A DNA stretch of 64,000 nucleotides, taken from the NCBI RefSeq assembly GCF_013387455.1, contig NZ_VWNC01000010.1, positions 1 to 64,000 on the forward strand. The letters are read 5' to 3'. The stretch comes from Mariprofundus sp. NF (GTDB lineage: Bacteria > Pseudomonadota > Zetaproteobacteria > Mariprofundales > Mariprofundaceae). Positions 21,969 to 52,818 of this stretch are shown one piece after another (position 1 is the first letter of the stretch; each line of letters begins with the position of its first letter). Below the pieces are notes generated by a model, which did not search any database, had not been told where the DNA came from, and was given only the letters and a program-made list of their open reading frames with translations. The translations under genes and the position numbers were made by a program.

Positions 21969-22418
21969 ATGCAATTGATTCTTTTGGAACGTGTTGAAGG
22001 TCTGGGTAATGTTGGTGACGAAGTTAGTGTTCGTGCCGGTTATGGCCGCAACTACCTGATCCCTAATGGTAAGGCTTCACTTGCCACTGCCGGTAACCGC
22101 AGTGTGTTTGAACGCCGCCGTGCTCAGCTTGAAGCCAAGCAGGCAGATGTTCTGACTACAGCTAAGGCTGAAGCTGAGAAGCTTTCTCTGCTGACACTGG
22201 AAGTTATTCGTGCAACGTCAGATGGCACACATCTGTACGGCTCTGTGAGCACCAACGAACTGGCTGATCTGTTGAATGCAAACGGTCAGAACGTTGAACG
22301 CCGTAACATCCTGCTCGATGAGCAGATCAAAACTATTGGTGAGCACCAGTTCCGTGTACGTCTGCACCCAGACGTTACTGCTGATGTCACCATCAAGGTC
22401 GAATCAGAGGAACATTGA
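21969..22418 (+). CDS. rplI: 50S ribosomal protein L9
   Basis: L9 binds 23S rRNA near the L1 stalk and helps keep frame. The N-terminal domain is typical (MQLILLERVEGLGNVGDEVSVRAGYGRNYLIPNGKA in short pieces), followed by the long linker helix and the C-terminal domain (GTHLYGSVSTNELADLL, RVRLHPDVTADVTIKV). Length 149 is normal. GGAGG precedes the ATG; an upstream in-frame extension lies inside yybS and is rejected. The dnaB start overlaps its stop. Confidence 0.97.
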   Translation: MQLILLERVEGLGNVGDEVSVRAGYGRNYLIPNGKASLATAGNRSVFERRRAQLEAKQADVLTTAKAEAEKLSLLTLEVIRATSDGTHLYGSVSTNELADLLNANGQNVERRNILLDEQIKTIGEHQFRVRLHPDVTADVTIKVESEEH

Positions 22419-23803
22419 GTCAAGCCATTCCCCTGCGTACCGATACGCTCAGAGAGCGTACCCCGCCGCATGCCTATGATGCTGAGCGGGCGGTACTCGG
22501 GGGAATCATGCTTGATGCCGAGGCACTGGAGCGACTGGAAGGTTCATTAGAACCGGAACATTTCTATGTTGAAGCCAATGCCCGGATTTTTTATGTTATC
22601 CAGGAGCTATCAGCGCGCGGCCAGCCGGTCGATGCCCTGACCATCAAGGATAATCTGGAACGACGCGATGAACTCGCCTCCTGTGGCGGCGAATCCTATC
22701 TGGCCGATCTGGTCACTGCCGTCCCTACCTCCGCCAATGTAAAACATTATGCCGATCTTGTTCGCGAGCGCTCTGTACTGCGCGAACTGCTCTCTGTCTG
22801 CAGCAGCGTAAGCCGCGATGTTTACGAAGAGACCGCGCGTGATGTCAACGAACATCTCGACACCGCTGAGAAGAACATCCTCGCGGTTGCCGAAAAGTTC
22901 AACCGTTCACGCCCCTCATTCTCCAAGATGAGCGATCTGATGCTATCGAGCTACAAAGAGCTTGAAGAGCGTTATGCCAATAAACAACTGGTTACCGGTG
23001 TCTCCACTGGTTTTGATGATCTCGATGAGAAAACCTCGGGCATGCAGCGTGGTGACCTGATTATTGTTGCCGGCCGTCCGAGTATGGGTAAAACCGCCTT
23101 CTCGATGAATCTCGCCCAGAATGCAGCCATGCGCGCTGAGGACAGAAACAGTGGCGTAGTCGCAGTATTCTCGCTGGAGATGTCATGCCAGCAGATCGCC
23201 CTGCGAATGCTTGCCTGTGAAGCACGCGTAGACATGCAACATCTGCGTACCGGTCGCTTCTCCTCTGATGACTGGCGCAAACTGGCAGCGGCCAGTGGTT
23301 CACTGGCTGAATCAAAGATCTTTATTGATGATACCCCGGCCATTTCCGTGATGGAGCTGCGCTCCAAGTGCCGTCGTCTCAAACGTGAAAACAAAGGCCT
23401 TGATATGGTGCTGATCGACTATATCCAGCTGATGAGTGGTCGTTCCAACTCTGAGAACAGAGCCCAGGAAGTTTCCGAAATCAGTCGCTCTCTCAAAGGT
23501 CTGGCTAAAGAGCTGGATGTCGCCGTGATCGCCCTCTCCCAGCTTAACCGCTCACTTGAGCAGCGTGCTGATAAGCGTCCGGTAATGTCGGATCTGCGTG
23601 AATCAGGCGCGATTGAGCAGGATGCCGATGTGATCATGTTCATCTATCGTGATGAAGTTTATAACAAGAAACCTGAGAATGAAGGTCTGGCAGAGATCAT
23701 TATCGCCAAACAGCGTCAGGGTCCAATTGGCGAGGTCAAACTCACCTTCGTGCATCGTTTCACCCGCTTCGAAAATCACATCTCCGCCGGTTTCGACGAC
23801 TAA
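22415..23803 (+). CDS. dnaB: Replicative DNA helicase DnaB
   Basis: A 462-residue hexameric helicase that unwinds DNA at the fork. The N-terminal collar domain starts at PPHAYDAERAVLGGIMLD; the RecA-type motor has Walker A GRPSMGKTAFSMN, Walker B DMVLIDYIQLM, the DnaB motif AQEVSEISRSLKGLAKEL, and the QLNRSLEQRADKRP arginine-finger region. The TTG start overlaps the rplI stop (TTGA) and has AGAGG six bases upstream. No intein is present. Last gene of the rpsF operon; no clear terminator follows. Confidence 0.97.
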   Translation: MSQAIPLRTDTLRERTPPHAYDAERAVLGGIMLDAEALERLEGSLEPEHFYVEANARIFYVIQELSARGQPVDALTIKDNLERRDELASCGGESYLADLVTAVPTSANVKHYADLVRERSVLRELLSVCSSVSRDVYEETARDVNEHLDTAEKNILAVAEKFNRSRPSFSKMSDLMLSSYKELEERYANKQLVTGVSTGFDDLDEKTSGMQRGDLIIVAGRPSMGKTAFSMNLAQNAAMRAEDRNSGVVAVFSLEMSCQQIALRMLACEARVDMQHLRTGRFSSDDWRKLAAASGSLAESKIFIDDTPAISVMELRSKCRRLKRENKGLDMVLIDYIQLMSGRSNSENRAQEVSEISRSLKGLAKELDVAVIALSQLNRSLEQRADKRPVMSDLRESGAIEQDADVIMFIYRDEVYNKKPENEGLAEIIIAKQRQGPIGEVKLTFVHRFTRFENHISAGFDD

Positions 23804-24019
23804 TTCATTATCTCCGAAGGACTGCTTGCGGCCATAACCGGCCAATCAAGCTTGTCTAGGAAATGGGTGGCAATTCACCCGGATATGGATTGCTGTCTTA
23901 ACGCATATCACACGCACCGGAAGGTCGACTATCCCCTCTTGACGGCCGCCGGCTGTTGGGGATGGCAGAACCGCGTGCGAAATGAGCCCGATAACCGGCT
24001 GGGACTGGGACGTGGGCGC
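23804..24019. other. Unassigned intergenic segment after dnaB with several hairpins
   Basis: No convincing gene on either strand. It holds self-complementary pieces: GGCC units in 23829-23846, GGGTG/CACCC around a six-base loop near 23865-23880, and ATCCCC/GGGGAT enclosing a GC-rich insert near 23930-23970. I compared it by eye with RNase P RNA, tmRNA, SRP RNA and common riboswitch motifs and found no match. It could be a structured RNA, a remnant of a mobile element, or a 3' region. Confidence 0.4.
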
Positions 24020-24184
24020 CTAAGAAGGCCCGCTGGCCGGGCCGAAAAAACTTTCTGTCGGGTAGACGAATCCCTTTCCTCCGTGGGTTGCTTCGTTATT
24101 GAGGTTGTTGATTTGGGGTTTTTGCCACTTCAATTTCGCGGGCTCTTGTTGTTTTTTGTCTGGTTGTGTTGCCTCGTCCTGCAT
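24020..24184 (-). CDS. Candidate RiPP precursor peptide (lasso-type leader pattern), 54 aa
   Basis: This small minus-strand gene starts at ATG 24184 with AAAGGGG six bases upstream and its own promoter. The first half is charged and Gln-rich. The middle has W20-x2-P23-x-I25-x2-L28-x4-T33, resembling the leader motif (Y-x2-P-x-L...T) bound by RRE proteins in lasso-peptide maturation; the spacing from P to T matches that of paeninodin-type precursors. After T33-H34 comes a Gly/Ser/aromatic segment starting GGKGFVYPTESFFG and ending SGPS, with Glu44 as possible ring acceptor (position 10 if the core starts at Gly35, 9 if at Gly36). No maturation or transport genes are in the window. A hairpin (24027-24043) overlaps the last codons. 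It is a candidate only. Confidence 0.5.
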   Translation of the reverse strand: MQDEATQPDKKQQEPAKLKWQKPQINNLNNEATHGGKGFVYPTESFFGPASGPS

Positions 24185-24190
24185 GTTGTT

Positions 24191-24249
24191 CCCCTTTGTC
24201 TACGCACTTTGTTACCCTGACATCATATGAATAAGGCGTTCGAATTCAA
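24191..24249 (-). promoter_or_regulatory. Promoter and ribosome-binding site of the small precursor-like gene
   Basis: Read on the minus strand: TTGAAT (24249-24244), 16-base spacer, TATGAT (24227-24222), about 38 bases of leader, then AAAGGGG (24197-24191), six bases, ATG. The signals are good matches to sigma70 consensus and are correctly placed for the 54-residue gene. Confidence 0.55.
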
Positions 24250-24568
24250 CAGGTTCGAAGGCACAGCTTTTGTTTAGGGGTTTTTCCTCGGTGGTTTTGA
24301 TAAGCCAGCTCCCCATACAGGACTCAAGCGAATGACCGGTTGAGACCGCCGCCGAACCTCGTCGTTGGCGACTGAAGTAAAACGACAGTCGAGGGGCAGC
24401 GCATAATTCAATAAATTTGCTCTGAATCGCCTTCAGATTTGGGATAAGAATTCACCTGATCCCCCAGAGGATACTCTCTTTCGCTCACAGCAAAATTCAC
24501 CTGATCCCCCAAGGGATGCCCTTCTCTCCCTTTATGGTTAACATCGCGACTTCGCAGGGGGAAAGGGT
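24250..24568. other. Intergenic segment with an 18-bp direct repeat before the SDR gene
   Basis: No gene seen. An exact 18-base direct repeat (AATTCACCTGATCCCCCA) occurs at 24449-24466 and 24494-24511, 45 bases apart. Between 24330 and 24410 are GC-rich segments such as ACCGGTTGAGACCGCCGCC followed by paired CGACAGTCG-like stretches. The repeat pair could be an operator for the SDR gene or part of a decayed element. Confidence 0.5.
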
Positions 24569-25300
24569 ATGAGTCAGCAGTTTAAAGATCGAATTATTAT
24601 GGTTACCGGTGCATCTGATGGCATCGGCCAGCAGGTTGCAGTAGCACTCGGTGAAGCAGGTGCCAGTATAATTGCACTTGGCCGCAGTGAAGATGGTTTG
24701 CAGCAGACTATGGAGCGCATCGAAGAACTCGGTGGCCGTTGCCTCTGTATCCCGTTTGATCTCAATGATTTCGACAACTACGGTAAGCTGTTCCTCTCCC
24801 TGAAGGATCAGGTTCCACATCTGGATGGGCTGGTTCACTGCGCTGGCGATATGGATCGCTGCACGCCGCTACAGTATGTGAAGGTTAATGATTTCCGTAA
24901 AATGCTCGATATCCATCTTACCGCACCGAATATGCTAACCCAGATCATGTTCCCGCTGCTCAGACGTGCAGAGGCTGCATCAGTGATCTTTACCAGCTGT
25001 GAGATGGTCGATAAGGATATGGCCAACTGGCACGGTTATGGTATGGCCAAGCGTGCTCTCGGCTATGCTGCAGCGATGTGGCAGATGGAGCATCCCGACA
25101 AACCGTTCCGTTTCAACACACTCAATCCGGGACGGGTACGCACCAAACTCTTTAAACGCACCTACGGTGGTGAACATCCCGATATGGTGCCACCAGCCAG
25201 CAGTGTGACCCCTGCCTATCTCTACCTGCTGTCGGATGAATCCAAACAGCTGCGTGGCCAGACCGTGCACGCCAGTGATCTGCTCGCAACAAAGCAGTAA
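24569..25300 (+). CDS. Short-chain dehydrogenase/reductase (YciK-like)
   Basis: A 243-residue Rossmann oxidoreductase. It shows the cofactor motif TGASDGIG near the N-terminus, NADP/NAD-binding Asp in FDLND, the NAG-like HCAGDM, the catalytic Ser in FTSCE and YGMAK (Tyr and Lys). The closing region NTLNPGRVRTKL and DESKQLRGQTVHA resembles the YciK group of uncharacterised SDRs. Substrate unknown. GAAAGGG precedes the ATG. It stands alone. Confidence 0.87.
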   Translation: MSQQFKDRIIMVTGASDGIGQQVAVALGEAGASIIALGRSEDGLQQTMERIEELGGRCLCIPFDLNDFDNYGKLFLSLKDQVPHLDGLVHCAGDMDRCTPLQYVKVNDFRKMLDIHLTAPNMLTQIMFPLLRRAEAASVIFTSCEMVDKDMANWHGYGMAKRALGYAAAMWQMEHPDKPFRFNTLNPGRVRTKLFKRTYGGEHPDMVPPASSVTPAYLYLLSDESKQLRGQTVHASDLLATKQ

Positions 25301-52277: not shown

Positions 52278-52353
52278 GCGGGTATAGCTCAGTTGGTAGA
52301 GCGCGACCTTGCCAAGGTCGAGGTCACCGGTTCGAGCCCGGTTACCCGCTCCA
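52278..52353 (+). tRNA. tRNA-Gly (GCC), copy 1
   Basis: A full 76-base cloverleaf: acceptor GCGGGTA pairs with TACCCGC, D-arm GCTCAGTTGGTAGAGC, anticodon loop TTGCCAA with GCC at 52311-52313, T-arm ending GGTTCGAGCCC, encoded CCA. Decodes GGC/GGU glycine codons. Confidence 0.97.
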
Positions 52354-52357
52354 GATT

Positions 52358-52383
52358 AAAGGGTCCGCAAGGACCCTTTTTTT
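52358..52383 (+). terminator. Hairpin-T terminator between tRNA-Gly and tRNA-Cys, copy 1
   Basis: AAAGGGTCC (52358-52366) pairs with GGACCCTTT (52371-52379) around GCAA, followed by a T run. It lies immediately after tRNA-Gly, yet the tRNA-Cys follows 18 bases later without a promoter. Confidence 0.8.
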
Positions 52384-52401
52384 ATTGCTTCAGGTTCAGA
52401 T

Positions 52402-52477
52402 GGCAGGGTGGCTCAGTGGCTACGGCGGAGGACTGCAAATCCTTTATTCGCGAGTTCGATTCTCGCCCCTGCCTCCA
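52402..52477 (+). tRNA. tRNA-Cys (GCA), copy 1
   Basis: A 76-base cloverleaf: acceptor GGCAGGG pairs with CCCTGCC, anticodon GCA within the loop CTGCAAA, T-arm GCGAGTTCGATTCTCGC, encoded CCA. Decodes UGC/UGU cysteine codons. Confidence 0.95.
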
Positions 52478-52576
52478 ACCTGAACCTGTCTGCTTAACTT
52501 CAAAGCATCCCACCCGATAACTGCAAGCTTCAGAGAACTGCAACCTTCATCTTTTTAATTTCATAACATCCTACCT

Positions 52577-52604
52577 TTGACAATGGCAAAACAGACGGCA
52601 TTAT
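52577..52604 (+). promoter_or_regulatory. Promoter of the second tRNA unit
   Basis: TTGACA (52577-52582), 16-base spacer, CATTAT (52599-52604), same distance to the tRNA-Gly as in copy 1. The spacer differs completely from copy 1 while the boxes are identical, which supports function. Confidence 0.75.
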
Positions 52605-52615
52605 TCGCCCCGTTA

Positions 52616-52691
52616 GCGGGTATAGCTCAGTTGGTAGAGCGCGACCTTGCCAAGGTCGAGGTCACCGGTTCGAGCCCGGTTACCCGCTCCA
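52616..52691 (+). tRNA. tRNA-Gly (GCC), copy 2
   Basis: Identical over all 76 bases to the copy at 52278-52353. Confidence 0.97.
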
Positions 52692-52696
52692 GATTA

Positions 52697-52724
52697 AAAA
52701 GGGAGGAGTTCTCCTCCCCTTTTA
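52697..52724 (+). terminator. Hairpin-T terminator between tRNA-Gly and tRNA-Cys, copy 2
   Basis: AAAAGGGAGGAG and CTCCTCCCCTTTT form a stem with a tiny loop followed by TTTATTTT. Sequence unlike that of copy 1 but at the same place, right after tRNA-Gly. Confidence 0.75.
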
Positions 52725-52742
52725 TTTTAAGTGGTTGTTAAC

Positions 52743-52818
52743 GGCAGGGTGGCTCAGTGGCTACGGCGGAGGACTGCAAATCCTTTATTCGCGAGTTCGA
52801 TTCTCGCCCCTGCCTCCA
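52743..52818 (+). tRNA. tRNA-Cys (GCA), copy 2
   Basis: Identical over all 76 bases to the copy at 52402-52477. No terminator is obvious behind it before the end of the convergent glnE. Confidence 0.95.

Follow-up and report, generated by a model that had tools for sequence, protein, structure and literature searches.

A 54-codon ORF on the minus strand of the window (the stretch of 64,000 nucleotides of Mariprofundus sp. NF DNA analysed here) is probably a member of a new lasso-peptide precursor family from iron-oxidising Zetaproteobacteria, an assignment supported by in-frame homologues in related genomes. The reading that we favor, at a probability of roughly 0.7, is that the ORF is a lasso precursor by descent that has recently been stranded: it would have arrived in a dispersed cassette with a UG4-like reverse transcriptase (RT) that has since been lost, and no lasso would be made from it here. 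Read in this way, the locus illustrates how precursors become stranded once their cluster is lost. The features on which this reading is based are listed in the table.

Table. Features of the precursor locus, with positions in the window.
Feature	Position	Strand	Remarks
54-aa lasso-type precursor ORF, MQDEATQPDKKQQEPAKLKWQKPQINNLNNEATHGGKGFVYPTESFFGPASGPS	24020..24184	minus	54 codons, ATG start; in-frame homologues
Leader, codons 1-34: W20(-15), P23(-12), I25(-10), L28(-7), T33(-2)	24083..24184	minus	positions common to homologues
Predicted core, GGKGFVYPTESFFGPASGPS; with Thr at -2, E44 is core residue 10; GPS at the C-terminus	24023..24082	minus	
Variable block, codons 29-51	24032..24100	minus	from comparison with the G009 C23 copy
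Shine-Dalgarno-like AAAGGGG	24191..24197	minus	6 bases 5' of ATG; kept in four copies
Sigma-70-like TTGAAT-16-TATGAT	24222..24249	minus	chance-level, unconserved
Conserved upstream segment	24190..24338	minus	also 5' of other precursor copies
Conserved noncoding segment, precursor stop to RT stop	23943..24019	minus	present in G009 C23 and C31
UG4-like RT 3' end, QFTRIWIAVLTHITRTGRSTIPS*	23871..23942	plus	convergent with the precursor; remainder of RT absent

The ORF occupies the gap between two plus-strand genes, at 22415-23803 and 24569-25300, which we take from their sequences to be a dnaB-like gene and a short-chain-dehydrogenase-like gene, respectively. The initial annotation of this locus described the ORF and the AAAGGGG preceding its start codon; the peptide exactly matches that description, and the RBS is where it was placed and is kept across four copies of the cassette. 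The promoter proposed in the same annotation is also present, but a match of this quality occurs at chance frequency (0.6 expected) and is unconserved in homologues. An imperfect direct repeat with GGGGGATCAGGTGAATT, in two copies, lies upstream of the precursor at 24440-24530. Neither the NCBIfam nor the Pfam models matched the window peptide, meaning that the family adds precursors with no match to either collection; Rfam found nothing at the locus, and a plasmid search with the peptide gave no match. A structured RNA downstream of the precursor was considered and rejected, since the segment folds no better than shuffled sequences (z +1.7).

The ORF exceeds chance expectation: searching with its sequence alone recovers a homologue (E 3e-8) from one sister genome. 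Same-frame homologues, which the initial annotation had named as a check, are present in the strain's own genome and in G009, G015, and G016. The own-genome paralogue lies on contig C1 (C1:72686-72856), downstream of an apparent frameshifted copy of the leader. The homologue on G009 contig C23 has the same length and leader as the window precursor; further members are G009 C5, which equals G016 C151, a G009 copy divided between contigs C94 and C31, at their ends, as well as three G015 members, of which the third is visible only from its L28-like position onward. G028, from a more distant genus, encodes two shorter precursors. A profile of five sequences, including copies already found, recovers those copies at 1e-23 to 1e-25 and additional family members at 4e-8 and 2e-4. 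At the split G009 copy, the precursor looks interrupted by an insertion between the end of C94 (L060) and the start of C31 (L145), and both contig ends carry 12-nt CACCTTTGGTGC and GGTGTCGACTTCACCGGAAT-like repeats. Coding constraint, also named as a check, is less clear: the leaders of the window and G009 C23 copies differ at 6, 4, and 7 sites by codon position, i.e., there is no third-position excess, and purifying selection on the window copy is therefore not demonstrated.

Five aligned members share invariant W20, P23, L28, T33, E44, and a final GPS. If the core is set to begin 15 residues past the Trp, W(-15), T(-2), and a Gly or Ala at core position 1 are common to all complete members; these members end in GPS, apart from the G028 pair, which end in VGS. 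The window leader carries W20-x2-P23-x-I25 with the Trp at the same -15 position as in all complete homologues, and T33 and G35 supply the Thr(-2) and the small first core residue. Of the split G009 copy, the 3' half (TFGAKTPLKSEYNSISAGPS, register set by eye) likewise has Thr(-2), Gly1, Glu9, and GPS. Thr(-2) and a YxxPxL leader motif are hallmarks of lasso precursors (PMC10368454). Among complete members, only the window copy (position 10) and the G028 pair (position 12) do not have the ring acid at position 8 or 9, such that an Asp or Glu at core 7-9 is present in the own C1 paralogue and in the G009, G015, and G016 homologues, and absent in G028. The initial annotation had flagged the position of the Glu as a weakness, and the weakness is real: E44 would be at position 9 only if the Thr were at -3. 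In engineering work, changing the ring size by one residue sharply lowered production (PMC13352647). With its ring acid at position 10, the window copy would be a doubtful substrate.

The case for a lasso family comes from the genomic surroundings of the homologues. The window peptide is homologous to precursors encoded beside a lasso-type cyclase in G015 and, weakly (E 0.003), in G028. In G015, two precursors adjoin a gene for a 638-aa asparagine-synthase-type protein, in a cluster that also contains NTP_transf_5, HprK-type kinase, sulfotransferase, and CxxCxxCC genes; about 10 kb farther on are ATP-grasp, ABC transporter, B2, and B1 (PqqD/RRE) genes. The G015 B1 and B2 proteins pass models NF033536 and NF033537, respectively. 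NF033535 is the best NCBIfam model for the G015 cyclase, yet this protein, like the other sister cyclases, scores below the cut-off of that model. In G028, precursor, cyclase, kinase, B1, and B2 genes lie inside about 5 kb, with two precursors beside the cyclase. B1, B2, and C are all found in G009, G015, G016, and G028, with B1/B2 and the cyclase on separate contigs in G009 and G016. A partial cluster was also seen in G002 C3 (L128, 8734-10863), where lon/HU-like genes on one side and a phosphoglycerate-mutase-like gene on the other flank B1 and B2; that genome gave neither a lasso cyclase nor a strong precursor match, an apparent partial cluster loss. In our literature search, no paper dealt with lasso peptides together with Zetaproteobacteria or Mariprofundus.

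The closest described systems are the kinase-bearing lasso clusters (paeninodin, pseudomycoidin, and Bradymonas bsf; PMC9266682, PMC10368454). These share with the present family an aromatic-x2-P-x-L/I leader, the usual Thr(-2), a Gly or Ala at core position 1, and a terminal Ser, and G015 resembles them in having an HprK-type kinase and a nucleotidyltransferase beside separate B1, B2, C, and ABC transporter genes. Unlike these clusters, G015 additionally carries sulfotransferase, CxxCxxCC, and ATP-grasp genes, the precursors are dispersed over the chromosome, the genome with the window gene lacks such a cluster, and the ring acid encoded by this gene comes one residue late. In lasso peptides, PadeK-type kinases act on the Ser at the C-terminus, and a nucleotidyltransferase homologue adds sugars (PMC9266682). 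Phosphorylated lasso peptides would thus fit the kinase gene and the invariant C-terminal Ser of the family. In the sister species, a PqqD-like B1 protein would bind the leader at W-x2-P-x-I/L, the B2 protease would cut two residues past Thr(-2), the C cyclase would close the ring between residue 1 and Glu8 or Glu9, and a PadeK-like kinase and a nucleotidyltransferase may modify the Ser that ends the invariant GPS.

None of this machinery was found in the genome that carries the window. The assembly is 99.78% complete, although it is a draft of 24 contigs from which a plasmid or island could be missing. Searches of the genome gave no PqqD/RRE (B1) match and no true Transglut_core3 (B2) match; the Pfam B1 and B2 models detect the sister proteins at E 1e-18 to 1e-26 and nothing credible here. 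Two Transglut_core3 matches were rejected, one because its ORF appears to encode DNA polymerase III delta' and the other because it contains stops. The sole long asparagine-synthase match is a canonical MCG-type AsnB, with the rest being weak and short. This protein, encoded on C7, was rejected as a lasso cyclase on the basis of its MCG-type start, its place within a polysaccharide locus, and a score similar to that of the canonical AsnB of G012. The initial annotation had proposed maturation in trans and had set the absence of an RRE or cyclase gene from the genome as grounds for refutation; no RRE, B2, or lasso-type cyclase gene was found, leaving that proposal unsupported. Its broader claim of a lasso-type RiPP precursor fares better, since leader-matched homologues adjoin lasso cyclase genes in G015 and G028, but it is qualified by the late ring acid and the missing machinery. 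What these relatives support is a lasso precursor by descent, as judged from sequence.

The gene might still be a live lasso precursor if the strain's own enzymes act in trans and were missed by the assembly or the models, for example on a plasmid, in a gap, or as diverged B1, B2, and C proteins. In favor of this, the genome retains two intact ORFs in which the leader signature is complete, and processing in trans is plausible for the family because precursors and cyclase are not linked in G009. We nevertheless consider a live precursor unlikely here, given the completeness of the assembly, the silence of B1 and B2 models that work on sister proteins, a cyclase model that finds nothing beyond canonical AsnB, and the ring acid at position 10. 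The absence of the family's machinery, together with the ring acid being one residue late, instead leads us to regard the window gene as a stranded precursor: with B1, B2, and C gone and an extra residue before the ring acid, it would yield no lasso. That both ORFs remain intact suggests that the stranding is recent; two intact ORFs without machinery would be unexpected after an old loss, a point that counts against stranding.

Less probable again is a precursor of a non-lasso RiPP class that shares an RRE-type leader. Similar leaders occur in many RRE-dependent RiPPs, the window ring acid is off by one, and the G028 cores lack an acidic residue at positions 7-9. This explanation would, however, have to accommodate a neighbor in G015 and G028 that is a cyclase-type asparagine synthase with a lasso cyclase as its best NCBIfam model, G015 B1 and B2 proteins that pass lasso models, and the combination of G1 or A1, E8 or E9, and T(-2) in all other complete members outside G028. 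A chance ORF without biological meaning is effectively excluded by the homologues, which keep the frame, have W, P, L, T, E, and GPS as invariant columns, and adjoin lasso genes elsewhere. This holds even though chance could yield 54 codons by themselves as well as the promoter match, and one pairwise comparison gave no clear synonymous excess.

The window precursor is part of a larger conserved unit. A region of ~150 bp upstream of it recurs at 72-76% identity 5' of the own (G000) C1, G009 C94, and G009 C23 copies, with other matches in 61 genomes being short fragments. The downstream segment is about 85-86% identical in G009 C23 and C31; a weak match to it in G010 was rejected, as it lies inside a large unrelated ORF. 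Between the window and G009 C23, nucleotide identity is 71% in the upstream region and 80% in codons 1-28, falls to 22-28%, i.e., random, in codons 29-51, and returns to 92% in the GPS and stop codons and 85% from there to the RT stop. This profile indicates block-wise replacement of the core, at equal length, between conserved flanks. Neither this replacement nor the linked RT remnant could have been seen in the initial annotation. A 22-23 bp motif, TCATTCGYTYGAGTCCTGTATGG, was observed at the start of the cassette upstream region, with one copy in the window (24313-24335, minus strand). The motif also occurs in G017 C198 (L115) as an inverted pair 1.2 kb apart (1500-1523, plus; 2725-2746, minus) that brackets an unrelated ORF and resembles mobile-element ends.

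The cassette also includes an RT. In the window, only the last codons remain: QFTRIWIAVLTHITRTGRSTIPS* corresponds to the C-terminus of the RT in G009 C31 (94% over 17 aa, E 1.6e-6), and a separate comparison of the remnant gave 82% over 17 aa (E 0.001). The own C1 paralogue has a broken RT fragment downstream (RIYE*GADSSRIGKYIQN*FRWLMAGELG, E 9e-4), such that RT remnants lie beside both precursor copies of this genome, in which a search for UG4 RTs gave no match. In G009 C31, the RT and the 3' half of a precursor lie tail-to-tail. A full-length RT, 73% identical to that of C31, is found in G009 C58 and G016 C138, where it overlaps the end of the lasso cyclase gene and is convergent with a precursor-like ORF that has lost Thr(-2) and the ring acid. 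G009 and G016 are near-identical over this cyclase-RT locus, which we therefore treat as one observation; counted in this way, precursor and RT are tail-to-tail at four loci in two genomes. The window cassette would have arrived as the upstream region, the precursor, and a convergent UG4-like RT, with the RT later being lost.

The cassette RTs of G009 and G016 have RT_UG4 as their best PADLOC match (E 5e-61 and 9e-55), far above the next class; the score, 204 bits, is well below the 458 bits of a typical UG4 RT. Known UG4 RTs are Proteobacterial enzymes of unknown function encoded near fimbrial genes (PMC4244168, PMC8934634), a neighborhood found for 66% of them (PMC8934634), and the UG4 RT of G211 likewise appears to be fimbria-linked. 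Unlike these, the cassette RT has a lasso cyclase gene and convergent precursors, rather than fimbrial genes, as its neighbors. At 14 further loci whose RTs match UG4 (UG4-like or group-II-like), no lasso precursor was found nearby, nor was one found at the RT loci of G010, G008, and G104; a viral-contig search with the RT gave no relatives. A literature search on lasso peptides with RTs or diversity-generating retroelements (DGRs) returned none combining both among the matches listed. The pairing of lasso precursor and RT thus appears undescribed in the literature searched; it is real at the level of sequence and is the novel part of this locus.

An RT beside a gene with a hypervariable 3' part, followed by a conserved GC-rich segment, is reminiscent of a DGR. 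However, there is no near-repeat of any core in the locus DNA examined, the whole block is unrelated rather than changed only at adenines, and the RT is convergent. With neither a template repeat in that DNA nor adenine-limited change, a DGR was rejected, and a mechanism of that type is unsupported. The RT could be a mover of cassettes, an exchanger of cores, or a mere neighbor spread along with the cassette. We also consider, as a speculative and rather improbable idea, that UG4-like RT and lasso precursor form one retroelement-like unit, in which the RT would copy or re-template the precursor and thereby spread leader-plus-UTR cassettes with exchanged cores. If true, such a unit would be a dedicated, non-DGR generator of lasso-peptide diversity in these Zetaproteobacteria. 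Either way, linking a UG4-like RT class to precursors with wholesale core replacement provides a testable hypothesis on the role of the RT. Elsewhere in the window, a tRNA-Gly(GCC) and tRNA-Cys(GCA) pair is tandemly duplicated on the plus strand (52278-52818).
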